DNA of 64,000 bases from Heterotrichella gracilis. Its lineage: Eukaryota > Sar > Xanthophyceae > Tribonematales > Xanthonemataceae. The stretch spans positions 1,965 to 65,964 of the forward strand of contig JAULBX010006109.1 of the NCBI GenBank assembly GCA_032358255.1, in the 5' to 3' direction. The notes below the pieces were generated by a model, which searched no databases, was not told the origin of the DNA, and saw nothing but the letters and a program-made list of their open reading frames with translations. A program made the position numbers and the translations under genes. This document shows, one piece after another, positions 7,501 through 64,000 of the stretch (position 1 is the stretch's first letter; every line of letters begins with the position of its first letter).

Positions 7501-10500
7501 GCTGAGGAGGGAGGCGCAGGGGCTGAGGGACAGGCTGGCGCAGGAGCAGGGGGGGAGGGAGGCGGCGGAGGCGGAGGGGGCAAGGGAAAAGGTAGGGGTG
7601 CAGCTGGTGTGTCTGCAAACTGTAATTCAAGCCAGGAGCGCTGTGGCTCATGCCATCCTTAACCTACACCCTGGCTCCAGCTGGTGACACAACTCATCCT
7701 GCACCCTGAAGTGGGTGAAACATGTCCCTCCATTCTATGGTGGACTGTTCTTGCTGTGTGTGCAGCCAGAGCAGCCATAGTACCAGTACAGGCCTTGTTG
7801 CCGAGCGCTTGTTTTCAGCAGCAGTGAAGTGTCCTGAACCATTCACCCATTGCTACCAGAAGGATCTCCAATCTAGCGTGTTCAAGTCGCAGCAGTTGCC
7901 TTCCATCATCCCTGACGCCCTAATCGTACACCATGAAACCTACGCCCGTCACTTTAAAGCCAACACCTGTAATCCCTACACCGTTAACCATACCCCCATC
8001 ACCTTGAACTAAACAACCCTATCCTTACACTGTGAAGCCTACCCCCATTTCCTCCAGGAGGAGCTCCAGACTAGCCTGTCCAAGTGTCAGCATGTGTGTC
8101 AGCAGCTTGGAGCGGCCCTGCAGCAGGCGGAGCACACAGGGGCGGCGCTGAGGGCGGACCTGCAGGCACTGGCGGCACAGGTGCGGGGGACAGCGAGCTG
8201 AGAAATGTTGAAAATTACAGGAATTTTGAGAACTGGATTATCAACAGAATCAGTGTTGATCTTGAATGCTGAATGAAACTCAATGTTGGAAGGGGGGAAA
8301 TCAAGAACTGTTGAAGCGAGAAAAAGTAAGTTCAGGCATGCAACCACTTCCTGTTTCTTCTGTTTCTCCCTGGCCATCACTTGAATCTCAACCCCCAACG
8401 CCCTGGCATGTGCATAGGTTGTGGAGCAGCAGGGGCGAGTGCGCAGCAGACGGCAGGGCACCCCCTCCTCTAGGCCACTCCTCGTGTTCAATCTGTGCCC
8501 CCCAGCCTGACGGGACACCAAATACATCATAGTATTTCAGAATAAATCTTAAACCAATTGAATTTGTGCGCACAGGTTGTGGAGCAGCGTGGCGTGATTG
8601 CGCAGCTGCAGTCTGACAACGCCTCACTGGCATCAGCAGCGGCTGCCAACGATCGGTCTGCCCAGGCGCTGCAGCAGGCGCTGGCTGATCAGAGCGAGGG
8701 GGCGGGGGCATGGAGGACGAGGTGCACGGCGCTGGCGGAGAGGGTGAGGGGTGGGGGAGAGAGGGGTGAAGGAAGGGCTTGAGCTTGTGTTTTCTTTTGC
8801 CAGGAATACTTTTGCCAAGGGTAATAAGATAAAAAATAACGTTACGGTAATAAGATAACATTTACTCCATTATACTAATATGTTTTTACCCTTGCTCTGC
8901 TTGCTACCATGCTTGCTACCATGGGCCGCCATCATTGACTGCCATGTGGCGTTGCAGGCTGACGCTGTGGAGGCGGAGGTGGCACGCAAGGACGCCAAGG
9001 TACAGGTGGGTAGGGGACACATGGCACACAATCGCATCCTGGACCAGTCTAATTATCACATAATGCGCAAGATCACAATATGTGCATAACTAGATACATG
9101 CGATGCAGCTTTACATTGCAGCATGTTCATTAATTTGTACATGCCCAAGCACCCCAATCACGCATGCATCCATTCAAGCTTATAGGAGCCGTCTATTTGT
9201 CGATTTTTTAAATCTATCTCCCCCTGCAGGACCTGTGCACGAGCAGTCTATCTGTCATTTTCTTTAACTAGTCCCCCTGTGCAGGACCTGAGCACGCGCA
9301 TCCAGACCTTACAAGACCAGGTTGACAGCACAGACAGCGCACTTACCGCTGAGAGGCGCGAGGCCCGGTCACGGATGCATGCAGCTGAGGACCAGCTGGA
9401 GCAGGCAAGGAGGGAGCTGGCAAGCTGCAGGTGGGTGGGTGGAAGTGGTGTGGGGTGTGTGGGGGGAGTTGCTGGCTCTGGACAGGTGGCTAGCGTGGTG
9501 TGACTGTGGTGTAGGTCATAGGGTTCACGGTTTAGGGTTTAGGGTTTGCCATGTGGTCACCATCACCACCATGCGCCAGCCGTGCCACAAGCTTGCGTAT
9601 GCCTGCTGGCGTCCTTAGCAGCGCATACGTTTTTGCCTTTGTTCCATTCTATCGCTGATTGAAGTGTAGTTTATAGTGTTCACAGTTATATGCTTATAAT
9701 AGTTATGTAGCATTTTACAGCTTGTCCTTGTATTTGGCGCCAGTGGCACTCTCACCCTGTGCTCTACACCCCCCACGCAGGACGAACGCCCAGGCCCAGC
9801 AGGAGGCGTGCAATGACGCGCGCCAGCATGCGGCTGCGTGCGAGCAGGAGTGTGCCCGCGCCAAGCAGCGGTGCGATGAGCTGCAGGGCGTGGCCACAAG
9901 GCTGAGGGCGGAGCTGGCGGCACAGGCGGAGGGGCACGCAAAGGTGGGGTGTAGGGTCAGGGTGTAGTAGGGTTAGGGTGTGGCCACAAGGCTGAGGGCG
10001 GAGCTGTCGGCGCAAGCAGAGGGGCCCGCAAAGGTGGGTGCAAAGGAAATGAAAATGTAGTGGAAGTTCATATTGCCGCCTGTCCTCAGGCCTAGCCAAC
10101 TCCTCTCAATTGACCAATGCACCAGGTAAGGACAGGCTGGGTAGCTTTTACTTGCCATTAAACCTTATATATCACCACATTCATTTCTTATTTCATGAAC
10201 TTGCACATTTTATGTTCATCTCCCTCCACACAGGAGCTGGACTTCATTTATTCAAATATTAATGGATGATTTTATCTAGTTGTTTTATCTACACATTTTT
10301 ACTTTCCCTTAATGCAGGAGATGGACAGCAAGGTGCGCGCGCTGGCTGAGCTGGCGGAAGCAGTGGATGCAGAGGGCACAACCCGACAGGGTGCAGTGCG
10401 GGACGCACATGCGCACCGCCAGCGCATCGGCCACCTGGAGGAGGCATTGGCGGAGGCGCATGCGGCGCGGGGGCAGGCGGATGCCGCCGCTGCGGGTTGC

Positions 10501-10617: not shown

Positions 10618-10842
10618 AGGGGTGCGGGTGTGTGGTGGGGGTTGCAGGGCGGGATGGTGAGGGGGGAGGGGGAGGGGGGAGGAGGGAGGTTGGGTTGGGG
10701 TGCACTGGGGTTCTTGGCTTGTGGGTGCTGGTTGTGTGTGCGCTTAACCTGGTATATACATGACTGGGACTGGAAGCATTGGGAGTTGTGCAGCTTTTGC
10801 ACTTTCGCCAGGTAAAGTGTTTATTGTTGAATTGTTTACCTT

Positions 10843-12455: not shown

Positions 12456-12522
12456 GCACAGCACAGCACAGCACAGCACAGCACAGCACAGCACAGCACA
12501 GCACAGCACAGCACAGCACAGC
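12456..12522 (+). repeat. Pentanucleotide microsatellite (AGCAC)n, about 13 units
   Basis: A perfect run of the five-base unit AGCAC, ending four bases before the ATG of the PA14 gene. It therefore probably lies in that gene's 5' leader. A length multiple of five means slippage would shift frame if it were translated. Confidence 0.92.
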
Positions 12523-12526
12523 AGGC

Positions 12527-15500
12527 ATGGCGTGCAGCGCAGTTGGGTGGGCACTGTGGCTGCTGCTGGCAGTGGAGGCGGTGGCCGGTCAGGCTGCGGA
12601 GCACCACACCGCCATTACCACCACCACCAGCCACCTAGCATTGGGGGGTGAAGGTAGGGGAGAATAGTGGGCAGGAGGGCAAATGCGATGCTTTAAAACG
12701 CACCTGTTGAACATGTCCTATTTTGACTACGTAGTCTATCCATTTTTTATTTATTTCTTTATACTTTACTTGTTTATCGTGTTTTATTTATGTGTTATTT
12801 ATTTAATCATTTATCAATTTGATCATTATTTGTTCTGCAGTGGGGGTTGAGGCGGGGCGCCAGGGAAGCCGTGCCCTCCTTGCCACCAAGAGACCACCAC
12901 CAAGCAAGAAACCCGGCAAGAAACCGCCACCCAAGACCACCAAAAAGCCACCGCCCAGCAAGCGATCGCCTCCCCCCAAGAAGAGGTCCCCACCCCCCAA
13001 GAAAAGGTCCCCACCCCCAATAAAACGGTCCCCACCGCCCAAGAAAAAGTCCCCACCCCCCACCAAACGCCCCCCTCCCAAGCGCCCTCCACCCCCACCC
13101 CCCGCCACTGGGCCCTGGGCAGCCAAGTTCTGGCAGCGCCCCTCCCCCCCTGGACCCACCCTTGACCAGGTGAGCTTCCAGCGACAGCCAGAATAGCACC
13201 CTGGACAGGTGAACTCCAACATCCTAAAATATAAAACTTTGGATCCTAAACCCTAGACCTCAATACCCTAAGCTCTAATCCAGGTGAACCAGGCGCATAC
13301 TCCCTGAGCATGCGGGTGCCGGCTAAATCCTAAACCCTCCGTGAACCCTAAACCCTTCGTATACCCAGTACCCTACCTGAAGTACCCTAAAACCCCTGGC
13401 GCAGGTCAACTTTGCCACCCTGCCCACCCCTTCCCTGGACACAAGGGTGCAAGGCATTCGCTTCTTGGGCGGGGGCACTGACCCCCTGGCCTACGGGGCC
13501 CAACCCTTCCCCGGGGGCTTTGCCACCTCCACCAGATTTGTGGCCCGATTCGAGGCGGTGGTTGTGGTAACCCTAGGGGGCAATTTCCAGTGGCAGCTGG
13601 AGGCGGATGATGCTGCGCGCATGTTCATCAACGGGTACACAGCCATAGACATACCAGGTATTTCAGTTTTGTATGAACATAATGCAGTCGAGAGGGGGCC
13701 AACCTGGGGTCATTAGGCAGGCACTGGTCATGCACCATCCATTAATTGACAGAAACCACCCACACAAACACACACACTTCACAGACATTAACAATTTCAT
13801 GGCATGGAAACGACCAGCACGGGTATAGGGTTTTAGGGTCCCTCCCCTCCCGTGACATGTTCCCTTTGTCCCCTCCTCAGCCACGCCAGGCGGTGGCTCC
13901 AGCTTTGGTATCGTTAAGACTTTCTAGAATGTTTCCCATTTTGCTGTTTGTGTTTTTGTTATGTATCCTTTTTTGGTTAAATCCTTTTCCGCTCCCCAGG
14001 CACACCAGGCGGTGGCCCCAGCTTTGGCACCAGCTCAGCAGCTTCTACCCACCCGGGCACTACCCCATGTTGACCTGCACAGGGTTTAGGGTTCCTGGGT
14101 TTCAGGTTTAGAACGTTTAGGGGTTTGGGTACTAGGGGAAAAGCAGGCTGCTGCCCTCATCTCACGTATTATGGCCCCCTTGCCCCCAGCCACACCAGGC
14201 GGTGGCTCCAGCTTCGGCACCAGCTCCAGCAGCTTCTACGCACCTGGCCGCTACCCAGTGCGCATCGACTACTTTAACGCGGCAGGCACCTCTGCCCTGC
14301 AGCTGCAGGTGCAGGGGCCAGCGGGGGTGTATGAGTACATCACCTCCGCCACAGACGGGATCAAGGTGGGTATTTAGGGTTTAGGGTTTAGGGTTTTGGG
14401 CCAGCGGGGGGGTGTATGAGTATACCACCTCGGCAACAGACGGGATCAAGGTGGGTGTGCAAGAATCAGGGTTTGGGGCCTTGAGTTTGCTTGGGTACAA
14501 TACCTCGCCAACAGACGGTCTCAGGGCGTTGCTTGAGTAGGTACTTACATGCATTCCAGCAGTACAGCCAGATGAGAAGACAGCCTTGCACAGGCTTGTG
14601 CCACTTGGCATTGCTTGCATCATTTCGATGTTTTCTAAATCTGTTGTAGATGCGGGCGTGTGGCTGTCCCCCCCTCAGATTGAGTACCCCCCTGCCCCCT
14701 AAACCCCCAAACCCTCTTACCTGAAGCATAAACCCTAAACGCTTGGCTGACCATGTGCGTGTCCCCACCTCAGATTGAGTACCCCCCAGCCCCTGCACCC
14801 CCCCCCCCTCCTGGCACCTCCACCACTGGCCTCACCGCACGCTACTACAACTACGCAGCAGTGGGACTCACCATACCCAAGGTGCAGCAGAGCGACTGGG
14901 GTGAGTTCAAGGTGTAGAGTTTGGAGTTTAGGGTTTAGGGTTCAGTGTTTAGGGTTTAGGCAACATCCGCCTTAGGTAAGCCTCAGGTCTCACAGTGCCT
15001 ACGGTGCAACAGAGCGACTGGGACGCATTTAGGGTTTAGGGATAAAGCAACATCTGCAGGGTTAGGGATTAGACGACATCTGATAGGAGGAATTCATCAA
15101 CCGCCTGTGGTGGGGTCACCCTAAACCCTAATCAGTGCCAACCTCCCCTGCTGAGATCCACTCCCCCCACCAACCCTCATGTTCCCCTCCCTCGCAGAGA
15201 AACGCACCCCTGACCTCATCACCACGCACCCCAGCGTAGACCTGCGCAACGTGGCCTACGAGTTCGCCCCAGGAGCAATGTTTGCACTGCCATATGGCGA
15301 CACATCCCCCGCTGCCTACCAGTTTGCCCTGGTGCTGAATGGGAGCATCAATCTGCCGTTGCCTGGGGACTATGCTTTCATGATGCGCTGCGATGAGGGA
15401 TGTCGCCTGTACATCGACGGGTATTTGATCATCAACAGCAGGGCGGGAGTCAGCGTGGGAGGTGGGAACCCTACACCCTAAAACCCTGGTGGAAACCCTA

Positions 15501-18500
15501 ACCTACATGACCCTGCTACTCGCCGTTACACTCCTTTCATCACCTTGGCCACACCCCTTTCCTCACCTTGCAGAATGCATGGCCACACCTGAACAGGCAC
15601 TTAGCGGCTTGTCAGTCGTTTTCTTATATATATACACTTTATCACCTAATAAAAGCCCATAAAAACGGTTCTTCATTGTTTTAGTATACTGCAACAACGA
15701 CCAGGCCTGGGCGTGGTTGTCAATGTGATTTGCCACCTTTTGTGACCCCACCCAGGATCAGGGGTAACGGTGAGAAGGGTGAATCCCAAGCATAAAAACA
15801 CTCCTGCCCCCCCCCTTGCAGGGTGCGACGCCTCCCCTGCCAACTGCGACTGGAATGAATACTACGCCAGCTCAGAGGTTGGCGCCACGGTTGCCACCTA
15901 CCCCGCAGGCAGGCGCACCATCCGCGTTGAGTACTGGAACAGGGGGGGCAGGGGCCTGCTGCAGCTGTGGTGGAGGTGGGTGCACTGTGACAGGCATGTG
16001 AACGAGGTTGATCATTTGTAAGTGTTTAAATCCGGTACAGTACCTGAAGTAAAAAGTGCAAATCATTCTCGTACAGTATGGAGTTGTTGAAAGCCTGTCA
16101 CAGTAACTATTTATTTCTTTTCTACTTTTCTCCCCATTCCTTGTCACTCCCTGATTGGTACATTTGCGTGTCAAGTTCTACTTCTACTCCGGCGATTTAT
16201 GTTTGCCACCCTGGTTGCATGCAGGGGTCCCCCTACCGACAGCATCGACGCCTCAGACCTTGTGCCGGCAGTGTACAGTGGCAGCCCTGTGTTCTCAACC
16301 CAGCCCGCACCCGCTCCGCCCCCACCAGACCCTATCAAGGGTTTGGCAGTGACCTACTACAACTATCTCAAGGGCCAGCTCAAGGCGTTCCCAGATTTCA
16401 GTGAGTGCACCATCAGGATACTGGTGCATGTGGAGGGGGATATTGGTGCATGCGCAGGATATTTTGGGATTTAGGGTTGAGGGATTTATTGGAGCAGGAT
16501 CAGGGGAGTTTGGTGTATGCATGTGGTGCTTGGCGGTGGGTATAGGAGGGGTCAGCATCCCTTGTACTAGTTTTGGTCACATCCTGCTGCCACTGACAGT
16601 GCTGTCTGGAAGTCCTTCAAACCCCAAAACCCTTAGCCCCTCCCCGCCCTGCAGCCAAGCCCAATCAAGCCCACCTAAACCCTACACCATCGGCCTAAAA
16701 ACCCTAAAACCCTCCCCGCTCTGCAGCCAAGCCCGATCTCCTCACCAAGCCCAACATCAGCGGTGTTGCGCCCTACCTGTACGCCTGGGGACCAGACTAC
16801 AACCTGTCAACCCCGGGATACACGTTCCCAGTGGGGCTGGAGGCATTCGCAGCCGCCTACCAGGGCGCCATGCTGTTTCCAACCGCCAACAGCGCGGTCA
16901 GCTTGTATCTGGAGTGTGCCACCGCCTGCCGAATGTACATAGATGACTATATGGTGGGGTCGACAGAGGACAACGGAGGTGCGGATTGAAGGGTTTATAG
17001 GGTACAGGGGTTTGGGTTTTTAGGGTTTAGAGTTAGGGTTTAGGGGATTGGGTGGGCAGCTGCTTACTATATGTAGGGCGCCATGCTGTTTCCAACCGCC
17101 AATAAGGCAGTGAGCCTGTATCTGAAGTGTGCCACCGCCTGCCGCATGTACATAGACGACTACATGGTGGGGTCGACAGAGGACAACGGAGGTGCGGGTG
17201 GGGCTTAGGGTTTATAGGGTTCTAGGTTTGGGGTTCACGGTGGGGCAGACGACCGCACGTACATAAACGACTACATGGTGGGGTCCACGGAGGACAATGG
17301 AGGTGCGAGCTGGATTTTAGGGTTTGTAGGATGCAGGGGTTTAGGGATAGGGTTTACGGTTTACAGCTGCTTGTCAGGGGGCAAAGCTGTTCCCAAACGC
17401 CAGCATCGCAGTCACGCTGTACCTCCAATGCGCCATTCCCTGCCGCATGTGCCTTTCACAGGTGTTGCTGGTCACATGGTGGACAGTGGGGTGGACAGAA
17501 GACATTTTTAGGTGTTGCATTTCCAGGAAACCAACACCAATTCCACAATGGGAAACACCAAAGTTTCAATAATAGTAATCATCAGGGATTAACACCCATT
17601 CAAAATGCTGACAGTATCTGTGGTGCACAGGGTACGTCACCGTGGGCCCCGCGCCCTACCCCGCCGGCAAGCGCAAGCTGCGCGTGGAGATGTACACCAA
17701 GGACGCCAGCGGGTACATCAAGCTTACGCGCAACGGCGGCCAGCTGGGCCAGGAGTCGTACGAGCAGGCGGCGCCGCCAGCCCCGCCCACCCCCACCACC
17801 GGCCTCACCGGCACCTACTACGATGCAAAGAGCCTGGACACAACTGCCCTGCCCAATTTTGGTAAGCGCGTGCTTGAGCAGGCATGTTGGCCAACCTTTT
17901 CATCCTTGCATGAGCCCATCGTGGCCCGCTTCATCGCCCACATGCCGCATTGGCAATGTACTTGGTTTCAGGATTCACTGCTTTTGCCGGTGGGTGTGCA
18001 CCGCCGAGACTGCTGGCAGTGCAATGTATAGTCAGGTGCCTGCGTTCTAAACGCATTGCTGGAACGCACGTAACCAATTTCAACCTTTAAACCCATGCTT
18101 GCATGCAGTCCTATCGGTTCCTATCCCATTTCTTGCTTGCAGCGCTGTTGACCCCCTTGGCCACCATCATCACCGGCACCCCCATCAGCCTGTGGAACAT
18201 AAAGTACCAGACCTTCACCGTGGGGCGCATGTTCCCGCCCGCCTTCCAGTGGCAGTTTGCAGCAGTGTACAACGGCACAATCACCATCGACACGGCCGGG
18301 CCCTACCAGTTCTATGTGGATAGCGCCGATGATGACCTGGTGGAGCTCCGGGTGGGGGACATGGGGTCGGTGCTGCTGGCAGCCAGAGGTGAGAAATACA
18401 TTGCTATAGAATGAAATCATTGGTTTTCAATACATGCATGGCTACATTCCATGTGAGCTTGAAATAATAAATAGCTGGCATCTGCTAGTTCTGCGCAGAT

Positions 18501-18886
18501 AGCCCTGATGATGACCTGGTGGGGGTGAGGGTGGGGGACATAGGGGCAGTGCTGAACAACATATACTGAATTAATGAACAAAACAATTGGAAAGTAAGCT
18601 TGAAAATGAACATAAAAAATTGCAGCATGTCAGACAGGCGTGTTGAGGGGTCGGCAAAGAGGTGGGCACACCTTTACATACCATGACACTGAAGGCCATG
18701 GTTCTTACGCATGCAGGCGGCAGCGACCCCGTCACGCTGTCTGCTGGCCATGTGGCCATCAGCCTCACCTACCTCAGCGCAAACAGCCAGGGCTACGCAT
18801 TCCTGGAGCTCAGCTCCCGCGCATACAACGAGGAGACGACCGACGAGTTTGTGGTCATACCCGCCAACAAGCTGAACCCAGCGTAG
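12527..18886 (+). CDS. Secreted Pro-rich (extensin-like) protein with PA14-type repeats
   Basis: Exons: 12527-12653, 12841-13169, 13405-13657, 14190-14365, 14774-14900, 15198-15461, 15822-15975, 16225-16400, 16727-16978, 17631-17861, 18143-18388, 18717-18886; 834 aa. A signal peptide (GWALWLLLAVEAVAG) is followed by about 75 residues of KRPPPSKK/KRSPPPKK repeats, the kind of sequence that is hydroxylated and glycosylated in algal cell-wall glycoproteins. Then come about four PA14-like units; three open with a GL.x.YY motif (GLTARYYNY, GLAVTYYNY, GLTGTYYDA) and all carry core motifs such as CRLYIDGYLI, CRMYIDDYMV and RKLRVEMY. PA14 domains are beta-barrels that commonly bind carbohydrate. Most introns are phase 1, which fits unit-by-unit duplication. 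Likely a wall or extracellular-matrix protein, possibly an adhesin. The first unit lacks the opening YY motif and may be degenerate. Confidence 0.85.
13878..14260 (+). repeat. Three copies of a 3' splice site and exon start
   Basis: The block CAG(C/G)CAC(A/G)CCAGGCGGTGG plus following bases appears near 13879, 13999 and 14187. The third copy begins the exon used in the model (14190) because it alone stays open through PGRYPVRIDY. The second copy runs into a telomere-like TTTAGGG stretch near 14085. Confidence 0.85.
14325..14530 (+). repeat. Three copies of a 5' splice site region with TTTAGGG spacer
   Basis: GTATGAGTACATCACCTCCG through GGGATCAAGGTGGGT spans the exon end at 14365. A close copy lies at about 14402-14457 and a decayed one at about 14490-14528. 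Between the first two is a run of TTTAGGG units. Confidence 0.88.
14665..14800 (+). repeat. Duplicated acceptor with CCCTAAA spacer
   Basis: CCTCAGATTGAGTACCCCCC occurs at about 14676 and again at 14769; the exon model uses the second. The spacer holds CCCTAAA-type units. Confidence 0.85.
16620..16745 (+). repeat. Duplicated acceptor with CCCTAAA spacer
   Basis: CCTCCCCGCCCTGCAGCCAA (near 16639) and CCTCCCCGCTCTGCAGCCAA (near 16711) are almost identical acceptors. The exon at 16727 uses the second. The spacer contains ACCCTAAAACC. Confidence 0.88.
16856..17510 (+). repeat. PA14 exon 3' part followed by three decayed intronic copies
   Basis: The exon segment ending at 16978 (encoding MYIDDYMVGSTEDNG) is copied at about 17077-17195, truncated at 17240-17308, and strongly decayed at 17378-17510. 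TTTAGGG-like tracts separate the copies. Copy 1 is still open and is preceded by a TATATGTAG acceptor-like sequence, but using it from the upstream donor would break frame. Confidence 0.88.
18497..18560 (+). repeat. Decayed intronic copy of the upstream PA14 exon
   Basis: GATAGCCCTGATGATGACCT and following bases repeat the exon segment at about 18319-18375 (encoding DSADDDLVELRVGDMGS), now carrying substitutions and lying in the next intron. Confidence 0.75.
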
Positions 18887-33534: not shown

Positions 33535-33565
33535 CCAACATGAAGCAGTGCTGGACTAGAAAATT

Positions 33566-42594: not shown

Positions 42595-42650
42595 TCACGC
42601 CCCCGCCCCCGCCGCCGCGCTGCGCTTGCGCCACAGCACCACCGGCCCCG
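42530..42650 (-). repeat. Tandem duplication of the JTB-like C-terminal codons
   Basis: The plus-strand block CGCTGCGCTTGCGCCACAGC (about 42617-42636) is nearly repeated at about 42546-42567 with the flanking GCCGCC-rich sequence. On the coding strand both copies encode LWRKR followed by an Ala/Gly stretch and TGA. The downstream copy lies after the stop. Confidence 0.8.
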
Positions 42651-51200: not shown

Positions 51201-53032
51201 GGAGGCTGGGGAGGCGGCCTTTGACGGGCCCATCACCCCCCGCAGCCTGGGCTATGAGTCGGACTATGAGCATGTGGAGATGGAGGAGGAGGGGCTGACG
51301 GAGGGGATTGAGGGCGCAGGTGGGTTGGGGGGGTGGTTGGGTGCTAGATGGGAGTGGACGGTGGCGAGGTGATTGTTGTGAAGGGTGGCTGCTGGCATGC
51401 GTGTCTTGGGGGTAGTACTTGGATTGTTGCAACCGCCATATCACTCTTTGCTTCACACCTTGGTTAGCAAAGTGGCTTATTGTTTGTCTTTCAAATGGCA
51501 GTACTGTTCATCCCTGATGGGTGTTCACCCTCGCTCCTTCTGCCCCCCTTGCAGGCGAGGAATCCGACGGCATGTCCGACGCAATGTCAGGGGGGTACTC
51601 CCCCATCCACAGCAGCGCCTCTTGCTCCCCTGAGCAATCCGTGCTTCTTCCCCTGTGCCTGTTCCCGGCAGCGGTCCCCACCCAAAACCCTGCCGAGGGT
51701 TCCGACGCAGCCCTCGCAGACCCTCGCGACGGAGTCACCCTGGGGGAGGGGGCCCCACCCCTGTACCGCGCTGACTCCCCACCCTACCCCGTGTACCCTA
51801 CCGAGGGTTCCGACGCAGCCCCTGCAGACCCTCGCGAGGGTGTCAAACTGGGGGGGAGGGACCCACCGCTGTACCGCGCTGACTCCCCACCCTACTCCCC
51901 ACGGGCCATCCCATTCCCCATCTCAGAGTGGAGTGAAGTCCCCCCCAGCGCTCCCCTGCACCCCACCCCTACCTCACCCACCCCTGCACCAGTGCCAGAG
52001 GCCGAGCTCCACACCCTTACCGAGGGTCTGCTCACCACGCATGACTTCCAAACCCTAGCCCAGGGTTTCCCCGGCGCAGCACCTGCGACGTCCCCACCCA
52101 CCCACTCGCCACATGACGCCACCCTGGACGCGCTGCTGGCCTCTCCAGTGCCCTCCCCTGCTGAGCTGGCAGAGGATGGCATGGTGGAGGACTACGTCTC
52201 GGACGACGACGCCTCCTTTGTCGGGGACCCGAGGGCCCGTTCTCCAGTCCCAGAGGCTGAAGAAGCGGTCCCTGTGACCCCTGTGAGGGCCACTTTTGTG
52301 GTGGAGGAGGTGCCCCAGCCCGGCCAGGATGTGCAGCCGCCACTTGCGCCCGCACCAGGGGGCGAGGCTGTGTCTAGGGAGGAAGCGGTTGGAGAGGAAG
52401 AGCATGTGGATGTGGAGGCGCAGGAGGGGGAGGGCTCACCTATGTCGGCCAGGGATGAGGTACGTGTGCACATGCCATGAAAGCGTGGGGGGAAGGGCAC
52501 GGGTGCATGTACAGAAAGGGCTTTTAAAGTACAGCGATGGAATGCCTGGACATTCTGGCGGCAAAAGCGGTTTGTCTGATACCATTCCCACTTGCCCAGT
52601 GCGTCTGCAAGCCTCCTTGACTATCTGTCCTGCTCGCGTGGTCCCAGATGCGCCTGTTGTGTGAAGCGCATTGTTTTCGTCCCACTGCCATTGCACTTCC
52701 CTTGTGAGCATCTTCCCCTCCTCTCATTTTGTAGCTCACCCCCCCCTCCCCTTCTCCCTTTGCCACAGGGCTCCCCCATGCACGCGCAGTACACCCCCTA
52801 CACTGGGGAGGACAGCTTTTACAGCGCCTCCCCTGACGCGGCATCCATCGCCACCATATCCCTGGACTCCCCCACCTCTCGCCCCATGGCCACCTCCCCT
52901 CCTTCCTCCCCTGGCGGCTCTTCCATGGCAGGCGGGGATGAGTGGGAGATTGTGGAGGATGTGACTGATGAGGATGTGGTGAGGGACATGCTGCAGCACA
53001 GTGGGATGTCCCATTCAAGCGGGACAGCGTGA
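45281..53032 (+). CDS. Dynamin-superfamily GTPase with long acidic C-terminal tail
   Basis: Exons: 45281-45527, 46018-46329, 47120-47316, 47771-47884, 48109-48285, 48415-48516, 48756-48917, 49156-49392, 49697-49910, 50233-50387, 50627-50828, 51113-51319, 51555-52459, 52769-53032; 1164 aa. GTPase motifs: G1 LTKAGKSTLLNAV, split by an intron after the Ala; a G2 Thr in NVPETARII; G3 ILDTPGPNE; G4 FFVVNKVDLM, split by an intron. A long helical region (residues about 230-750; for example SLQRDTCRLAEELEGV, RQLKKLSKAIEAAV) fits a dynamin stalk or bundle. There is no PH domain or obvious membrane helix. The tail from about 790 is Pro/Ser/Glu-rich, has a tandem repeat, and ends with DEWEIVEDVTDED. The G1 sequence recalls bacterial dynamin-like proteins more than classical dynamins. 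Start codons at 45203, 45281 and 45296 are all in frame; 45281 is a compromise. Confidence 0.8.
46980..47130 (+). repeat. Duplicated polypyrimidine tract and acceptor
   Basis: CACCCATCCACACCCAATCC followed by a CCACC(T/C)GCAG acceptor occurs at about 46983-47016 and 47087-47119. The exon uses the second. A further acceptor-like CACCCGCAGGCCCCA lies near 46828. Confidence 0.85.
47264..47560 (+). repeat. Three copies of an exon end and donor (G4 region)
   Basis: ACCCGCAGCTGGTGGCGCGC through GTCAACAAGGTGGG, which encodes the segment up to VVNK and the donor at 47317, is repeated with substitutions at about 47396-47455 and 47499-47560. The two intronic copies have lost open frame or donor quality. 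Confidence 0.88.
47866..48038 (+). repeat. Four copies of an exon end and donor with TTTAGGG spacers
   Basis: TTGCAGCCGGAGCAGGTGAG at the exon end (47884) is echoed near 47928, 47970 and 48014. Each interval contains TTTAGGG- or GTAGGG-type units. Confidence 0.88.
49570..49745 (+). repeat. Decayed upstream copy of an acceptor and exon start
   Basis: CTGTGCAACTTCTTGTCCTC near 49588 mirrors CTGTGCGACTTTTGGTCCGC at the exon start (49697), and the match continues through ACCAGCCT(C/G)AA. The upstream copy lacks a clean acceptor. Confidence 0.78.
51675..51900 (+). repeat. Tandem repeat in the GTPase tail, about 100-120 bp unit
   Basis: The coding segment for EGSDAALADPRDGVTLGEGA to PPLYRADSPPY is repeated as EGSDAAPADPREGVKLGGRD to PPLYRADSPPY, in frame and adjacent (about 51695-51792 and 51800-51897). 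Confidence 0.9.
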
Positions 53033-54525: not shown

Positions 54526-57500
54526 CTATGCCGTTGTCACTGCCTCCCCTTGTGCCGCTGGGCCCCCTTGCACCCTGAGGGTGAACACGTTGACCGACCA
54601 GGGGGGGAGTGTTAGGAGGGAGTGGGTGGAGAGGTCCTTCAAGGGGAGGGATTTGGGGGACACCTGCATGGGGAAGGGCAAGATATTTCATTCCTTTTTA
54701 TTTCAGGCATCTAGGGGGTTGCCTTTCTGTTTGTTTGTTAATTTATTTCAGCCATGCCCTGGTTGCAGGACGAGAGCGGCTTTCAAGAGGTGAAATGGGC
54801 TGCCAGGGCATGATAAGGACCAGCGGTTGCTAAATTAACCTCTTATAAGGTTTATTGCTTCATAAGGGTAAGAAACAAACCCTTGGCGCCAGGATGCGCT
54901 GTGGGGCAGCGCCACATGTGCTTCACACAAACCCTAACCTAGCGTGTGTGCTCCAAACCCCAAACCCTAGTCAACAACCTCTTAAGGGGAGGGCCCAAAA
55001 CCCCACCTTGAGCGGGTCGTCCATCGAGTTCCTGTCCAAGGACGAGCTTGAAGTGATTGTGATATGCTCCCCCTGCGCCTCCACCCCCGCCACCCCTGCC
55101 AGCTGCAGCACCAGAGGTTGATCCAAGGGGGAGTAGTTTACCACCTTGACCGCCAGGGAGGAGCAGTTTTGGGTGAGGCAGGAGGCGATGGCAACCACTC
55201 CGGTGCCTGTGCCATAAGGGTTAGGGTTAAGGGTCAAGGTAATGGACACTGTAAGGTAAAGTAAGGGTAAGGGTGGTTTTAGGAGGCGGGCAGGAAGTGG
55301 TGGCAATCACTTCAGTGCCTGCGCAAGGGGCCAGGGGTGGGGAAGGGGATAGCGTTCGGTAAGGGTAGTTGTGGGCAAGGCAGAAGGCTATGGCAACCAC
55401 AGTTTGCAGACGGCAATGCTTGCTTACCAGTTGGTGGGCTGACAGCTGTCGCCGCGTTTGCCACTCCCAGCGCTGACGTCAGCAGGCGCTGCACATGGTA
55501 GGAGGGGATGCCAAACCACCTGCAAGGCAAGGGGTGTGTGTGTGTGTATGACACTGGTGGTTGCAGCAACACTTGTGGATAACCTCGGCATCATGAGAAA
55601 TAGTGTTCAGGCCATCCCCACACACACTGGCCACAGCCCTAGCCATCCAGTCGCCACAACGCCGCTGACCCTCACGCAAAGTCCATCAACCCCACTCCCC
55701 CACCCAACACCTCCCCCTTCCCCATCCAGGCCCCCACCCACCTTGTGCTCTCGAAGTTGATCATGTTAGGGTTCCAGTTGGATGCGCGCACGTTGACCAG
55801 CAGGGGTGCATAGGATGCCATTGTGACCCTGTCTGAGTTGCGCTCAAGGCCGAGCATGAAAGCAGCCTCAGCAACAGCGCCTGCAAGGGAAGTTAGGGTT
55901 TTAGGGTGTAGGGTGTGGGGTTGTGTCGGCCAGCCACAATGCCCTCTACCCATGCATTCACTTTGCCATTACATCCACACTGAACTGACATTTGCGGCAT
56001 TGTCATTCTCATGCATTGTCATACTCATGCTGACACAAGCAGGCATTAGGTAAGGGTAGCCTAGGGATAAAAAAACCCTAGGTTAGGGTTTTTGCTCACT
56101 CAGCAGCGCGACCCCCTGCTCACGGCATACTTGCTGGCGGAGGCCCCTGATCTAAAACCTAAAATCACGCTAGGTTTACAATACCCAAAATTTAGGGTTT
56201 CCGCTCACCCAGCAGCGCGCCTGGCCCCGCGCCCCTGGTCACCGCATACTCGCTGGCGTAGATGTCCGCCCAGTTCCTGTTGTAGTCATCAAAGTGGGTG
56301 TGCAGCGCAAACATGGTGGCGTCATCGGTGTACATGTGGTAGTCCCACAGCTCGGTGGGGGCCACGGGGCCCATGGGGCAGTTTGCAATGTAGGTGATTT
56401 GGGGGTAGGCGGCCTTGAGGGCCTTGTACAGCGTGGCGTAGTTGACGGAGTAAGCGGCCCACCGGAAGCAGCCCTGGGGTGGGTGGGAGGGTTTATGGGG
56501 TTTGGGGTGCTGTTTGGAGAACCATAAAATCCTAAACTCTACATCCGGAGTAGGCGGCCCACCGGAAGCAGCCCTGGTGGGGGATGGTGGGTGGTGGTGA
56601 GGCGGGTGGTGGGCTGGAAGGGGAACACCGGTGGGGAAAAGGGAGGGGGGGCGTGAAGTTTCATTTTCTTTCCTTTTTGGGGCCATGGCGATGAGGCATG
56701 GGAAGCTTGAGGAAGGTAACATGATGTGGCAGGGGGGATGCACGCTGACCTCCAACGTCACAACATGAAATGACCAGACTAAGCGCTGTATCATCTTCCC
56801 TGCCCATTCATTTCATTCCTGTAGCATTGCTTTCGCGCGTCAGGTGCCCCTCACCTCATTCCCAATGGACACGTATTTGAGCTCCCAAGGCTCGGGGTGG
56901 CCCATGTCAGCACGAATTTTGCCCCATGTGGATGTGGCGGGCCCAGTAATGAATTCGATTGAGTCCAGGATGTCCTGAAGCCAGGGCCCCAGCTGGGCAG
57001 GGGGGATGGCTGCAAATGAAGGCACATTTGGAATGTCAGGGGGCACAAGGGGGGGTACACCAGGGCCATGCGCGACTTGCATGAGAAGAGCTAGACCCTT
57101 ACCACTCGCATGTAAAAACGTAGTGTATATATCGATATATGTGTGTCAAGGATATAGTATATATATGTATATCTTGACAACCCTGGTGCGTCAACCCTAC
57201 ACAATATGCAGGTGGACTGCCTTTGTCACGTGTCATTTTATAATTTTGTCATTCAGGACGCATGCATGGAGTGTGTGCCTTACCTTCATTGTGCGCGTTC
57301 CCACTGTTGACCACCCACACAGCGTCTGCCCCCAGCTCCTCAACCAGAAGCATGTACTCATACAACCCAAGGCCTGCGAGCCATGGGGGTGGGTAGTGGA
57401 TGGAGGTGAGGGGGTTGGAGGTGCACCTCCCCAAGCAAGATTGCGGCGGATATCAAATTCGTAACATTTTCAACCCCCTTTTTTCCCATTCTTTCCCCGC

Positions 57501-60500
57501 ACCATTCGTGCTCCCGAAGCCCTTGGGTGCACAGGCTCCCCAACATCATCAACATACCACCCATGCACACCTATCTCCCATCTGGCTATGCTGATGGAAT
57601 GGTTGGAATAATAATAAAATGACATGTGTCCACACATCCATTTCCATCCCCGTTTCTCCCATCTTTCCCCCTCACCGTCTGTGCTCCAGTAGCCCCAGGG
57701 GTCATTGAAATGCCCCGGCCGCTCCTCGTTCCGACCCAGAGCATTCTTCCAATTGAACCTGCACACACCAAATCAGGATTACGATCCAAGACAAGACACG
57801 CCACCTTGCAAAAAACCTGCGCACACAAAGTAAAAGGGTAGCATGCCAGCACTGTGAGCGCCCAAGCTTCTTACTCCTTCCAACCCCACCCACAGCCACA
57901 GTCACAACCAGAATCACATCCACCCACAGCCCCAATCACAGCCAGGGCCACACTCCACCCACAGCCACAGTCATCGCCCTTACAACCACAGCCCCCCCCC
58001 CCCCCCCCCCCCCCCCCCCCCACCTGTTGACCAGCCAGTTCCCCTCCACGTAGCACCCGCCGGGGAAGCGCACAAAGGCTGGTGCCAAACCCTTGAGGGC
58101 ATCCATCAGGTCCTGACGGAAGGGGTGGGGGTTGGCCGCGCCTGCAGGGGAGGGTTGGGGGTTCAGGGTGTAGGGTTTAGGCTGCATGGGAGGGGAGGAA
58201 GAACATGCAGCTGCGTGGCAGAGAAATAGACATGGAGCTGCGCAAGGGGTGATGCACTGACACTAAAAAGCATGGAAGCCTTCTAGAAGTATTGTACATC
58301 AAGTCATCAGATCATCATTATCCTGTTATTCTGTTATGAAATCAACACCCATCCATCACCAATTTTTCAATTTCCACACCCACTCACCGCTGACCATGTT
58401 TTCCTCAGGAAACACCGACACATAGTCCACCACCAGAGTGCCTGGACCAGGAAAGGTGAGCAGCAGCAGCGCATCCAGATCTGTGCCATTGGCCTCCAGC
58501 ACGGTTTCGAATTTGAACCATGCTGTGGATAGGCCGGTGAAGGTATGAGAGGCGTAGGAGGTGGCGAGGGAGGGGGAGACAAGGGCGACGGTGGCGGAGG
58601 GGATGTCGCCCTGAGGGTTGGGAGAATGTGGATGGTGAGGATTTCCATTTATTGGTAGCATTTTGGATGCAGTTTGAAATGACATACTCATCCAACAACC
58701 CTCGCCTGCCACCAAGCAGCGGCCCTGCCCCACTGAGAACACCCCCACAAGCTGCGCGTATCACTCCCCTGGACCCCATGGGTGTGCATCACCATGCTCA
58801 CTGAGATGTGCAGCATCAGCGGGGTGCAAACACCCTAAGCAGAACCCTCCCAGCCCCCTAAACCCAATTCACATCCCCACCCACCTGCAACGACATGCGG
58901 CACACCGTCATACCAAACCTGCTCTCCTGCTGCATCGCGAAACCCCGTCCCAGACCCTAGTTTAAAACCCCGGCAAAACCCTACCAAACACCACCCACCT
59001 GCAGCGACATGAGGTACACCGTCACACAGAACCTACACCCCTACTGCACTGTGAAACCCCGTCCCAGACCCTAACCTAAAACCCTGGCAAAACCCTATCC
59101 ACCTGCAGCGACGTGAGGTACACCGTCACATGGAACCTGCGCCCCTGCTGCACTGCGACACCCGGGCCTAGACCCTAGCCTTTAACCTTGGAAAACCAAT
59201 ATCCAAATCCCACTCACCTGCAGCGACATGAGGTACACCGTCACACAGAACCTGCACGTCTGCTGCCCCGCAAAACCCTGGCCCAAACCCTAGTCTAAAG
59301 CCCTAAAACCCTACCCAAAACCCCACCCACCTGCAGCGACATGAGGTACACCGTCACATGGAACCTGCGCCCCTGCTGCACCGGGAACCCCCAGAAGCCG
59401 ATATTAATCAACCCTCCCTGGGGCCCGTCTGTGTGCAGGATCATGCTGACTGTGTTGTGAGGCGCCAGCGGGTGCCACTTGGACAGCGACCATGCGGTGG
59501 CAGGTGCTGGGCGCCAGGCCACCTGGATGGCGTTGGTGCTGTAGTTCCTGGGAGGGGTGGGGGGAGGGGTGGTGGGGGTGGTGGAGATGATGGTGGGGTT
59601 TGGAGGTGATGGTAGGGTTGGAGGTGATGGTGGAGGTGGAAGTGAAGGTGCTGATTTGTGGGGCGTCAGTGGATGGCACTTGGACGGGACTAAGCGGTGG
59701 CAATGTGCGTGTGTGTGTGTGTGTGTTTCTTGGTGGTGGAAGGGGGGTGCATATACGGGCCATTTGGGTGGCATTGATGGGGTAGCTTTTGGAAGTGGTG
59801 GAGTGTGGTGGGTGGTGGGTGGCCCTCACCTTTTGCCCCACAGCCGCTCAGGCTGGCGCAGGCCTGGTGGGGGGTAGGGCAGCGCCACCTCCTTTGCCCC
59901 CGAGGTGTGGAACCCTGTTGCTGCCGCCAGGCCGTCAAAGCTTCGGTCCTGGCACAGCTCGGCATACAGGCCCCCCTCCCCTGCGTAGTTGATCTGCAAG
60001 GGGGGAGGAGGTGGGTGGTGCGGGTGGGTGTGAGGGTGGGAGCGAAGGGGTTGGAGGGTGGTTGGCAGCATAGGGCTGGAGGGGTGCGCGGGGGGAGGGG
60101 TTGGCAGGAGTGCAGGTGGAAGGGAGGGGGGTGCGGTGGGCAGGGAGGAGGGTGTGTGGAGGCCAAACTCGGCCTGCGCGAACGCCAACCCCACTGGTCA
60201 CAACACATATTGCGGCGGCGCTGCCCACTCTGTTGCATGCTGGGAATGGACCTGGTGGCCGACCAAGGCAGCCCCGCAAACCTGCAAATTGAAAACCCTA
60301 GGGTTTCAAACCATCACGACAGCGTCCTGCCCATCCCCTGGTCCTGCACCAGGTTACAGCTGTGCAGGCTGCATCATGCCCCATCCTGCCCCATCCACAC
60401 CCTCCAACCCCCATGACAGGATGCCCTACCTCCTCAAAGAATATGCCGTACAGGCCCGGGCTGTTGGGCTTCAGGGAGCCAAGGTTGACGTCGATGGTGA

Positions 60501-61451: not shown

Positions 61452-64000
61452 ATGTCGCTGCCCTCTGAGCTCTACAAGCCCTACTCTATCAAAGACCAAG
61501 TAGTCCTCATAACAGGTACACCGACCCAACCTTATGTTGAACAGTGATTAAAAAGTACTTCCAGGCATACCTGTGATTCTTCTTCGTACCACATGCAACA
61601 CTGCATGCTCGCATTGCATTGGTACACCCCACTTCTCCAGTAGGGTATGCATACGTATGCACTGTACGCTTGCTACCCTGCACCATGCGAAACTCTTGCA
61701 CACTCGTACCTCAGCTTCACACCCCGCTACTTGCACTGCTGCACTTGCCTCACCTCCACGTTAGGGTTCAGGGTTTCGTGACACCACCCTCGCCTGCACC
61801 TCCTCTGCACGCAAAAGCAAATAACACTTGAAACCGATGTCTGCCCAGTTAATATACTTGTGTCATGACTACGGTAACACTCCTGCGCCCTCAATCTAGA
61901 CCCTAAACCCTAATCATAAACCCTAAGCTCCTGCGCAACCCCCCACCTAGGTGCCAGCAGCGGCATCGGAGAGGCCTGCGCATGGCGATTTGCCGAGGCG
62001 GGGTGCAGGCTCATTCTGGTGGCACGCACAGCCGCCAAGCTTGCTGCGTTGAAGAAGGACATCGGGGCAAAGTACCAGGTGGGTTGACAGGTCATCGAGG
62101 GTTATTAGGGTTTTAAAGGGGGCTGAGGATTCTTTGGGCTGGCTGTGATGGCACGTAGGGGTGGTGCTGAGCCCCGCCCCCTGCACCCAGCTGCACTCCA
62201 TCGGATTTAGGGTTTTGAGGGTTTGGAAGTGGCAGAGATCAAGTACTGGGTCGGTTGGGGGGTGTTCATATCATCAGTGATTCGTGAAGGTGGGGACCTC
62301 GCAGTGCGCTCCCTCCTGGGCTTTGCCCCCATCCATTTGGGGTTGCGGAATTATGCGACTTCCTGATCCCCTCTATCATCAACCCCCCTGTAGGTCCCCG
62401 TCATCTGCATGCCCCTTGACGTGCGGGAGCTGGATCGTGTGAAGACCCTGCCCCTGCACCTGCCCCCCGAGTTTGAGGATGTGGACATTCTGGTGAACAA
62501 CGCGGGGCTGGCGCTGGGGGTGGCGCCAGTCACAGAGAACAGCATGGAGGTGAGGGGTGCTGTGGGGTTGGTGTGGGATGTTGAGGTTTCAGGGATACTG
62601 CGAGGTTTCTAAGAGTTTTCTGTGTTTTCTGAGGTTTAACACCTTGATTGCTCCCGAGGTGGCAGGACCCCATGACAGTCAATGTTGGTGCATGGGCGCG
62701 TTGCACTCCGAAAATGGCGCGCTGCGCTCATAACAACACTCTTGAGGGTATCAGGGCTCGGGAAGGCTCGTGGGACCCATGGTCATGAGTTTGGCCAATG
62801 TCATGCTCACAGTTGATCGAACCTGATCCAATTTAGAGACATGACAGAGACCGGTGCAGCAATCGCGCTATTTGGATGCAACCTGATCAAATCTTCTGAT
62901 TGCGCTTACTAACCAGACGCGCATCACCCGATCGCAGGTCCTGATGACCATGATGGAGACCGACATCAGTGCCACAACCGATCAAACCTGATCCTAGCCC
63001 TCTGATCATACTTAATCATCCTCTGATCGCAGGACCTGATGACCATGATGGAGACCAATGTGATGGCTGTGGCTGCGTTCACTCAGGTGTTCACACCCGG
63101 CATGGTTCAGCGCAACAGGGGGCACGTGGTCAACATCAGCTCGGTGGCGGGACAGGAGGCGTACGCAGGTGTGCTTGGCGGCTGGGGCCCCGAACAACTT
63201 GAATTTTCGACCCTTACCTGAATCCTGTCCAGTAGCAACCCTAGACCCTGACCACTAGCAACCCATGCCTGAGAAGCCTAACCAATGTGCACCCTTGAAG
63301 TGCGTGGATGAGCCACCACTCCTGTGCCTCGATTTGAAACCAGCAGCAGCGGAAAGTCACTCCCCGCCAACTGGCAGAGGCCGAAAACCAAGAAAGCAGA
63401 TAACATGTTTTCATTGATATAAATAGATAGATGAATTCATGAAATTGATACCTAACAGCACATCAACTCCTCCTCCCTTCCTCCCTGCCCGCAGGTGGCA
63501 GTGGGTGTCGGCATCCTGAAAACAGTCGCCTTTTGACATCAGCCACAATTCCACTCCTCCCCCGCAAGTGTCAGCAACCCACCTTCACTCCCGTTCACCC
63601 CCTCTTTTCTCCCCTTGCAGGTGGCAGTGGGTACTGCGCCAGCAAGTTTGCCCTGGACGCCTTCACCACAGCTGCCAGGCACGACCTGGTGGCCAGCAGC
63701 GGGGTGAGGGTCACAGCAATCAGCCCAGGGGCGGTAAGCACACAAACCCTAAACCCTAGAACAACCCTAAAACCCTAAGCAGCGGGGTCAGGGTCACAGC
63801 AATCAGCCCAGGGGCGGTGCGCACACAAACCCTAAACCCTAGTAAACCCTAAAACCCTAAGCAGCGGGGTCAGGGTCACCGCCATCAGCCCGGGGGCGCG
63901 GTTCGCACATGAACCCTAGCGAAACCCTAGCATAACCCTGCAGACCCGGGCCACTATCTGCCATGTGGCCAAACCTGCGCAACCCCATGATGCCCGTGTA
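61452..64000 (+). CDS. Short-chain dehydrogenase/reductase, partial at the right edge
   Basis: Exons: 61452-61515, 61951-62078, 62394-62549, 63033-63168, 63621-63733, then further exons beyond a repeat-filled intron; 199 residues visible. Classical SDR motifs: the cofactor loop TGASSGIG, split by an intron inside the first Gly codon; LDVREL; NNAGLAL; the catalytic Asn in METNVMAV; the catalytic Ser in [20 protein letters not shown] with the Tyr and Lys; and ISPGA. The closest type I can name is the NADP-dependent YdfG / yeast YMR226C group, which oxidises 3-hydroxy acids such as serine and 3-hydroxyisobutyrate; the substrate here is inferred only from overall motif resemblance. The next exon may begin near 63944 but I could not confirm it. 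Confidence 0.88.
62930..63060 (+). repeat. Duplicated acceptor and exon start
   Basis: GATCGCAGG(T/A)CCTGATGACC followed by ATGATGGAGACC occurs at about 62932-62962 and 63026-63056. The exon at 63033 uses the second. Confidence 0.88.
63490..63645 (+). repeat. Duplicated acceptor
   Basis: GCAGGTGGCAGTGGGT occurs at about 63492 and 63617. Only the second leads into the YCASK-encoding exon. Confidence 0.85.
63690..63900 (+). repeat. Three copies of an exon end and donor with CCCTAAA spacers
   Basis: AGCAGCGGGGTGAGGGTCAC through AGCCCAGGGGCGGT spans the exon end at 63733; copies follow at about 63778-63818 and 63860-63897. The spacers are made of AACCCTAAACCCTA-type units. Confidence 0.92.

Follow-up and report, generated by a model that had tools for sequence, protein, structure and literature searches.

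In Heterotrichella gracilis, short blocks of DNA that span splice junctions are recurrently duplicated into the neighbouring intron, and the copies often lie on either side of a tract of the telomere repeat TTTAGGG. Tract and copies are frequently flush with one another, and the spare copies carry frame-breaking gaps. At roughly even odds (a probability of about 0.5), the duplications are scars of break repair, in which broken ends underwent telomere end-processing, by telomerase and fill-in synthesis, before being rejoined, with tandem growth thereafter.

Sample and definitions

The sample covers 294 kb of the genome, including the window (the whole 64-kb stretch presented here), a 200-kb stretch termed C2, and three small stretches. 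Splice junctions are those predicted by gene models trained for this analysis. A duplicate pair consists of copies of at least 28 nt with at least 75% identity, no more than 1.5 kb apart, with telomere words masked. Independent loci in the window were grouped from pairs of at least 30 nt with spacers of at most 400 nt, and pair counts there were compared with three sequences simulated under an order-3 Markov model. Telomere tracts were counted across the 294 kb where at least 12 nt were covered.

Duplications at splice junctions

The window contains 42 local duplicate pairs, while the simulated sequences contain 1, 0, and 1. At 10 of its 19 independent loci, a copy includes a predicted junction; at 12, a spacer holds a telomere run of at least 7 nt; and at eight, both are true. 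Over the 294 kb there are 99 independent loci (about one per 3 kb), which bears out an earlier note on this DNA that described such duplications as recurrent. A splice junction lies inside a copy at 48 of these loci; 51 carry a telomere repeat run in a spacer, and the other 48 have no run of at least 7 nt there. Periods range from 66 to 280 nt and the exonic part from 8 to 125 nt, the copies being neighbouring, direct, and tens of bases long. Some loci are arrays of up to six copies, and in multi-copy loci, the repeated unit includes the telomere tract. Assembly artefact is an unlikely source, because copies differ by 0–25% and have unlike spacers.

Loci in the window are listed in Table 1. 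Junction duplications are present in six of the seven genes named in the earlier note (coiled-coil, PA14, F-box/LRR, dynamin-like, GH51, and SDR); the seventh, JTB-like, drops out, its duplication lying at a coding end. The region from about 26 to 37 kb is free of them, as had been noted: 26–38 kb holds only one 24-nt duplicate family, and exact TTTAGGG or CCCTAAA is absent from 24009 to 42045. The second piece of the PA14 gene has no Pfam match. In the dynamin-like gene, the real exons join into an NKxD motif (VVNK/VDLM; exon from 47771).

Table 1. Duplicated loci in the window (positions in nt; percentages are identities between copies)
Feature	Locus	Strand	Copies	Junction and telomere tract
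3' splice-site duplication	8409..8606	+	8409-8447, 8567-8606 (82%)	Real exon from 8576
Coiled-coil gene, 5' splice-site duplication	9885..10038	+	9890-9948, 9980-10038 (91.5%)	Degenerate TTTAGGG tract 9952-9979 between copies
PA14, 3' splice-site duplication	13863..14256	+	Three copies	Real exon from 14190; TTTAGGG tract 14081-14126
PA14, 5' splice-site duplication	14315..14485	+	14315/14398; 85-nt unit	Exon end 14365; tract 14373-14396 flush with both copies
PA14, 3' splice-site duplication	14659..14791	+	14659/14754	Exon from 14774; CCCTAAA tract 14697-14740
Duplication ending at 5' splice site	14864..15022	+		5' splice site 14900; tract 14911-14960
PA14, exon end with 5' splice site	16862..17450	+	Spares from 17075, 17253, 17376	5' splice site 16978; tracts 16990-17045, 17205-17221
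Exon-end duplication	18303..18554	+	(81%)	Stops 13 nt short of predicted 5' splice site; copies not separated by any exact telomere word
F-box/LRR, 5' splice-site duplication	23889..24063	-	23889/24003 (79%)	CCCTAAA (gene sense) after each copy
JTB-like, 3' end of coding region	42515..42640	-	42515/42586 (89%)	Predicted coding end, not splice junction; exact TTTAGGG absent
Dynamin-like, exon end with two spares	47260..47572	+	47263/47401/47501	5' splice site 47316
Dynamin-like, 5' splice-site array	47861..48048	+	Unit of about 43 nt: exon end, GTGAGG, TTTAGGG tract	Real exon end 47884
In-frame duplication within exon (contrast case)	51687..51895	+	108 nt	
GH51, 3' splice-site duplication	55165..55400	-	55165/55367 (85%)	Degenerate telomere-like sequence between copies
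GH51, 3' splice-site duplication	56446..56583	-	56446/56546 (92%)	Exon 56209-56473; tract 56488-56503
GH51, real exon end with four spares	58855..59392	-	Unit of about 114 nt: exon end, splice site, telomere tract	5' splice site 59330/59331
SDR, 3' splice-site duplication	62922..63056	+	62922/63017 (90%)	Exon from 63033; no telomere tract
SDR, exon end with two spares	63695..63939	+	83-nt unit	5' splice site 63733; CCCTAAA tracts 63744-63778, 63827-63860

Across the 294 kb, 62 of 156 pairs span a junction, compared with 30.0 ± 4.9 under random placement. Of 208 intronic telomere tracts, 81 are no more than 25 nt from a junction, against an expected 21.5. The comparison of junctions with other positions proposed in the earlier note thus leaves its claim standing. 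On its own, the window tests junction enrichment only weakly (14 junction-spanning pairs of 39, compared with 8.2 ± 2.6 and a maximum of 18 in 500 random placements; with telomere-masked gene models, 16 of 39, compared with 8.3 ± 2.4 and a maximum of 15 in 300 placements). The result rests on C2, where 43 of 102 pairs span a junction and 19.1 ± 3.6 are expected. The spare copy is on the intron side at 50 junctions and on the exon side at nine, a difference that is partly a matter of geometry.

Such a distribution could be ascribed to selection alone, with breaks and duplications falling at random, exonic ones dying out, and those at junctions or in introns surviving. The low density of telomere 7-mers in exons (0.55 per kb, compared with 10.0 in introns) and the shortage of exon–exon pairs with spacers of up to 400 nt (three observed, 8.3 expected) agree with this, and slower decay is expected of pairs with one coding copy, from which the excess of junction pairs can in part arise. 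However, selection predicts that wholly intronic pairs should be the commonest, whereas they are fewer than under random placement (34 against 48.9), and among pairs at least 90% identical, five are intronic and 28 contain exon sequence. Pairs between genes, also without coding constraint, number five where 25.2 are expected; exon–exon pairs show no depletion at spacers of up to 1.5 kb (nine against 9.4); and tracts are concentrated in the first ~45 nt of introns and thin out at greater distances from the 5' splice site, in contrast to the flat distribution of control words. The survival of junction duplications by selection, as the earlier note proposed, accords with the intron-side position of most spares, but is insufficient by itself because of the deficit of intron–intron pairs and the crowding of tracts near intron starts. 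As a complete explanation, it is improbable.

Identity and location of the telomere repeat

TTTAGGG is the chromosome-end repeat of this genome. The array (TTTAGGG)6 occurs at 63 places, 59 of which are within about 280 nt of a contig end, on 12 contigs and all in telomere orientation, while the remaining four are internal. Interstitial tracts consist of the same repeat, a feature of short interstitial telomeric sequences (ITS), and the 294 kb contain 236 of these short, imperfect, internal arrays, with a median length of 22 nt. In the window, TTTAGGG occurs 35 times on the forward strand and 18 times on the reverse (dinucleotide expectation 3.7 and 3.3), confirming the telomere-like filler previously noted in the spacers, and its rotations are the most over-represented 7-mers among those seen at least 25 times.

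Tracts that lack detectable flanking repeats also crowd junctions (54, compared with 15.6 expected). The three small stretches show no crowding (two of 19 tracts, 1.7 expected). At 5' splice sites, tracts are enriched in both orientations, unlike control words, a pattern that fits a process acting on DNA better than a signal in RNA. A sense-strand bias of tracts, apparent by eye in the window, vanished on counting (190 sense, 187 antisense). Sense tracts tend to occupy earlier positions in introns than antisense tracts, but this was set aside as evidence, since control words of equal composition behave in the same way.

Copy–tract–copy anatomy

Of 235 tracts, 58 have direct repeats on both sides; random positions of the same class give 14.7, and swapping the flanks gives 1.3. 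The counts are 32 of 81 for tracts of at least 20 nt and nine of 19 for those of at least 30 nt. Among intronic tracts, 57 of 208 are flanked, where about 19 are expected after matching for distance to the junction. Flushness (to within 8 nt) is found on the left in 36 of the 58 flanked tracts, on the right in 36, and on both sides in 23. Such flush repeats beside tracts are as predicted by break repair with insertion of telomere sequence. Telomere words occur between the junction and the intron-side spare in 39 of 50 cases (17.4 expected from duplication-free junctions) and are absent there in 11, and the 6-mers most enriched in spacers are telomere words or their variants, 4-fold over introns. 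Copy identity correlates with telomere-run length over 123 adjacent pairs (rho 0.25, p 0.004). The correlation is not significant in the 84 pairs with a run of at least 6 (p 0.24), and the median run is just 7 in the nine pairs of at least 95% identity, below the 10 of the 90–95% class.

A possible, if less probable, origin is that fragile tracts came first. Forks stalling or breaking at a tract would switch template 60–280 nt back into the exon and recopy exon end, splice site, and tract, giving X-T-X-T arrays (X, copy; T, telomere tract) without any need for telomerase at the time of duplication. Further telomere-like sequence is present within 40 nt outside a copy at 47 of the 58 flanked tracts, so the tract often belongs to the repeated unit and is not a clean insert. 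The tract-containing units of multi-copy loci point the same way, as do 17 of the 39 tract-bearing junction cases, in which the homologous stretch of intron includes telomere bases, and fragility and expansion of ITS are reported in a review (PMC6410037). Yet the tract lies solely between the copies in 11 of the 58, telomere bases are confined to the non-homologous spacer in 22 of the 39, and the junction crowding of repeat-less tracts is left unexplained.

Fate of the spare copies

Of 28 internal gaps in the copies, 25 are not multiples of three and break the reading frame, and five of 167 single-change codons are changed to stops. Judged by sequence, the spares are dead and frame-broken, and maintenance as functional coding exons was rejected in view of the gaps and stops. 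The synonymous share of single-change codons is 93 of 167 (0.557, against 0.258 for random changes), by rough estimate close to what a constrained real copy and a neutral spare would give.

A role in splicing for spares or tracts, whether as enhancers or as decoy or alternative sites, is suggested by the good 5' splice consensus retained in several spares and by the adjacency of tracts to splice sites. It is nonetheless highly unlikely, given the enrichment at 5' splice sites in both orientations, the frame-breaking gaps and stops, and an orientation bias at 3' splice sites whose direction is shared by control words.

Least probable of all is the birth of introns, or an introner-like mobile element that carries the telomere repeat and makes target duplications. 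A predicted 49-nt intron at C2 197077-197125, whose model is doubtful, consists of telomere-like sequence; introns with a tract at each end give a weak signal (20 against 12.9 expected, p 0.02); and intron heads show a slight in-register excess of similarity to the next exon head (0.268 against 0.257 ± 0.004). However, among 310 introns, only two are bracketed as a whole by direct repeats (none under the null), the telomere share is lowest (2.2%) in introns shorter than 120 nt, and spacer enrichment is headed by telomere variants only, with no shared non-telomeric core. The route to new introns envisaged in the earlier note is accordingly not upheld.

Proposed mechanism

We infer that the loci began as breaks, with telomerase and fill-in synthesis as the agents. 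A break with staggered complementary ends would arise at or near an exon edge, and telomerase, or capture of telomeric DNA, would put TTTAGGG onto one 3' end. Protruding strands would be copied by fill-in synthesis and the ends then joined, yielding X-T-X, in which X is the stretch between two nicks, mostly tens of bases. Where a splice junction falls within X, the copy next to the exon would stay functional; because the tract and spare would land in the intron, the scar would be tolerated there and subsequently decay. Some loci would re-duplicate as a unit of X and tract, producing the arrays of up to six copies.

Junction enrichment, the true telomere repeat, and many flush repeats support break repair with telomere insertion, as the earlier note suggested. 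Priming by telomerase would be expected to leave stronger in-register homology at one boundary; such homology occurs at the presumed priming boundary in nine of 21 flush cases and at the other boundary in six, which is not a significant difference (p 0.57). A match to the telomerase RBD is split over two open pieces. A CTC1 family search did not detect CTC1, but it matched nowhere and is uninformative on presence.

The preference for exon edges may have a tentative explanation: staggered breaks, or the processing of breaks, could be concentrated at these sites, and the broken ends could be treated like chromosome ends, receiving telomere repeat and having their protruding strands filled in before being rejoined. 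The genome would then preserve traces of thousands of abortive telomere-healing events (extrapolated from 294 kb), placed at splice sites in either orientation by some DNA-level process associated with transcription, splicing, or exon chromatin.

Known systems and significance

Tandem duplications from adjacent single-strand breaks have reportedly been described in plants by Schiml et al. in 2016, to go by the title, and are similar in that respect; to our knowledge, telomeric filler is unreported for them. Mammalian short ITS are inserted at breaks, some with target duplication (six of 130 rodent loci, 4.6%; four of 25 primate loci, 16%), and share with the present loci short true telomere repeats inside chromosomes, occasional duplications, and a proposed origin in break repair (Nergadze et al. 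2007, PMC2246262). They differ in that here 58 of 235 tracts are repeat-flanked (by a different criterion) and loci crowd exon edges. Small tandem duplications arise in mouse and human cells through fill-in by CST-guided Pol alpha at breaks with 3' overhangs (43 bp in the test; Schimmel et al. 2021, PMC8355091). These are likewise small, direct, and formed at staggered breaks, there by the telomere C-strand fill-in complex; unlike in this genome, the available text mentions neither a telomeric insert nor a tie to splice junctions. Direct repeats near intron borders, for which break repair is invoked, resemble the present ones in their proximity to splice sites (Rogers and Bendich 2025, PMC11782384). 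They pair the two ends of one intron and measure 4–30 bp, whereas here the copies lie at one intron end, and flanking of whole introns is nearly absent.

A search of the open-licence literature found no description of splice-junction duplications tagged with telomere repeat. Insertion of telomere sequence at breaks and tandem duplication by fill-in are each known on their own; here, they appear to be coupled and anchored to exon edges. For gene annotation, the finding is a warning that many introns hold decayed exon ends with good splice sites. It also offers a natural archive in which to study how often broken ends receive chromosome-end treatment, by which enzymes, and why exon–intron borders break, or are repaired, in this manner.

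Sampled sequence and gene models

The genome assembly, judged eukaryotic from its introns, comprises 68.5 Mb in 903 contigs, and the analysed sample covers 294 kb: the window (C63:1965-65964), a 200-kb stretch of a second contig (C2), and three 10-kb stretches. A further 10-kb stretch (L031, G000:C100:20001-30000) was left out because it looks bacterial, being AT-rich (GC 0.349) with compact open frames. Judging from this composition and these frames, its contig probably represents contamination by an associated bacterium.

Gene models are predictions of a small gene finder trained on window exons chosen by eye, which converged on the donor AG|GTGAG and on a CAG|G acceptor rich in C. Exons and introns have median lengths of 164 and 296 nt for the window models and 171 and 366 nt for those of C2. 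The predicted proteins are plausible, and Pfam matches confirm GH51 (two domains), SDR, PA14, and a dynamin GTPase domain; a Pfam search with the second piece of the PA14 gene returned no match. At window 12455-12523, a microsatellite, (AGCAC)13.8, overlaps a predicted exon, and the gene model there, which fuses the coiled-coil and PA14 genes, may be wrong. Introns in the sampled stretches change along their length from G-rich (33% G in the 5'-most tenth) to C-rich (31% C in the 3'-most tenth).

Duplications at splice junctions

Local duplications are real and common. Neighbouring direct copies form 42 pairs in the window and 123 in C2, while simulated sequences yielded 1, 0, and 1. Once pairs are collapsed, 99 independent loci occur in 294 kb, of which 48 have a junction inside the copy, 51 have a telomere run (counted from 7 nt upward) in the spacer, and 31 have both; the window's share is 19 loci (10, 12, and 8, respectively). 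A typical locus runs from the exon end and its splice site through a tract of TTTAGGG or CCCTAAA into a decayed second copy of both exon end and site, here called a spare.

Location of arrays, duplications, and other repeat features
Location	Strand	Feature
Window 47260-47572	+	Dynamin-like exon end and two spares
Window 51687-51895		In-frame tandem duplication of 108 nt inside a dynamin-like exon, with a short telomere-like stretch between copies
Window 58855-59392	-	Array of five copies in all (GH51 exon end and four spares)
C2 stretch 164500-164900		Array of six copies
C2 stretch 118000-118440		Long duplication without telomere words, copies about 150-190 nt; exon, splice sites, predicted gene end
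C2 stretch 127799-128108		Long duplication without telomere words, copies about 150-190 nt; exon and splice sites
G000:C109:52096		Internal perfect (TTTAGGG)6 array
G000:C120:45692		Internal perfect (TTTAGGG)6 array
G000:C346:45229		Internal perfect (TTTAGGG)6 array
G000:C640:149455		Internal perfect (TTTAGGG)6 array
Window 1-30		Pure or near-pure C run, 30 nt
Window 57992-58021		Pure or near-pure C run, 30 nt

The earlier note held that these duplications favour splice junctions and carry telomere-like filler, and both claims were borne out. A predicted junction is spanned by 62 of 156 pairs, against 30.0 ± 4.9 at random (maximum 42 in 500 placements); with models rebuilt on telomere-masked sequence, the count is 63 against 30.6 ± 4.7 (maximum 44 in 300 placements). 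At 50 junctions a spare lies towards the intron and at nine towards the exon, one junction counting in both sets. Where the spacer is at most 400 nt, pairs joining exon and noncoding sequence number 101 (60.1 at random), intron-intron pairs 34 (48.9), between-gene pairs 5 (25.2), and exon-exon pairs 3 (8.3), the last reaching 9 (9.4) once longer spacers are admitted. Part of the junction excess could be a detection effect, since divergence should be slower in a pair with one coding copy; at 90% identity or above, exon-containing pairs still outnumber wholly intronic ones by 28 to 5.

The spares are dead: across 46 of them, 25 of 28 internal gaps break the frame, and stops account for 5 of the 167 codons with a single change. 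In the dynamin-like gene model, joining the exon-proximal copy at 47316 to 47771 yields VVNK|VDLM, which we take to be the G4 motif, and the two spares within that intron thus appear to be skipped in splicing. Nor do the data favour the suggestion that duplications are a route to new introns. Repeats flank the whole intron in only 2 of 310 cases, and telomere repeat is scarcest (2.2%) in introns shorter than 120 nt. Two weak contrary signals, tracts at both ends of one intron (20 against 12.9 expected, p 0.02) and a slight in-register excess at the heads of introns (0.268 against 0.257 ± 0.004), are not taken as evidence of intron birth.

Telomere repeat at exon edges

The spacer filler is telomere repeat. 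(TTTAGGG)6 occurs at 63 places, and 59 of them are no farther than about 280 nt from the end of a contig; these are spread over 12 contigs and are reversed at contig starts and forward at contig ends. A telomerase RNA-binding domain lies on another contig (G000:C626:23723-24513), split over two open pieces. TTTAGGG is already known as the ancestral green-algal telomere (excerpts of PMC12636532 and PMC8226300). Introns contain telomere 7-mers at 10.0 per kb, intergenic sequence at 3.55, and exons at 0.55, and telomere words are the 6-mers most enriched in duplication spacers relative to introns. Such words stand between junction and spare in 39 of 50 cases, against 17.4 expected from the same spans at duplication-free junctions.

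Tracts concentrate at exon edges. Within 25 nt of a junction lie 81 of 208 intronic tracts (21.5 expected), including 54 without detectable repeats (15.6 expected), and 64 of 186 under telomere-masked models (20.1 expected). By sample, the counts are 27 of 52 in the window (6.5 expected), 52 of 137 in C2 (13.8), and 2 of 19 in the three small stretches (1.7). Within 45 nt downstream of 5' splice sites, tract starts are 2.9 (sense) and 2.6 (antisense) times as dense as beyond 90 nt, against 1.1 and 0.8 for controls, 19 pooled repeat units of telomere-unit composition. Before 3' splice sites, antisense density is 3.1-fold (controls 1.5) and sense 1.0-fold (controls 0.6). That both orientations are enriched at 5' sites argues against a motif acting at the RNA level. 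A supposed sense-strand bias proved wrong (190 sense, 187 antisense), and position-dependent orientation was discarded as evidence, as control words show the same.

The earlier note explained the exon-edge preference by selection, a junction-spanning duplication being tolerated because its spare falls in the intron. Selection does account for the removal of exonic events, but cannot alone deplete mid-intron positions and is therefore insufficient.

Origin of the tagged duplications

Tract and direct repeat belong together. Direct repeats within 130 nt flank 58 of 235 tracts; random positions of matching class would give 14.7 and swapped flanks 1.3. They become more frequent with tract length (32 of 81 tracts of at least 20 nt, 9 of 19 of at least 30 nt). 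Tract-free control points are flanked in 18 of 111 cases within 25 nt of a junction and in 1 of 408 beyond 250 nt; matching for junction distance, about 19 flanked intronic tracts are reckoned, against 57 of 208 found. Repeats lie close to the tract (medians 4.5 and 4 nt), flush on both sides in 23 of 58. Copy identity rises with telomere-run length (rho 0.25, p 0.004, 123 adjacent pairs); among the 84 pairs with a run of at least 6 the correlation is not significant (p 0.24), and the trend is broken by the nine youngest pairs.

Telomere-tagged duplications at splice junctions were not found reported in the open-licence literature searched. In mammalian genomes, breaks have received insertions of telomere repeat, of which a minority show target duplications (excerpts of PMC2246262), and in mammalian cells the telomere fill-in machinery, CST with Pol alpha, produces small tandem duplications at 3'-overhang breaks (excerpts of PMC8355091). 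Acting together, insertion and fill-in would directly give the order copy, telomere tract, copy, and we infer this combined origin: telomerase would lengthen one protruding 3' end, fill-in synthesis would copy both ends, and the ends would then be joined. Telomerase priming predicts better register at the growing boundary; the check for this was negative or underpowered, with 9 of 21 cases in register there against 6 at the other boundary. Secondary tandem growth must also act, since more telomere-like sequence lies outside a copy at 47 of 58 flanked tracts and the tract falls within the repeated unit in 17 of 39 junction cases. Its source is perhaps the tracts themselves, telomere tracts being fragile (excerpts of PMC6410037).
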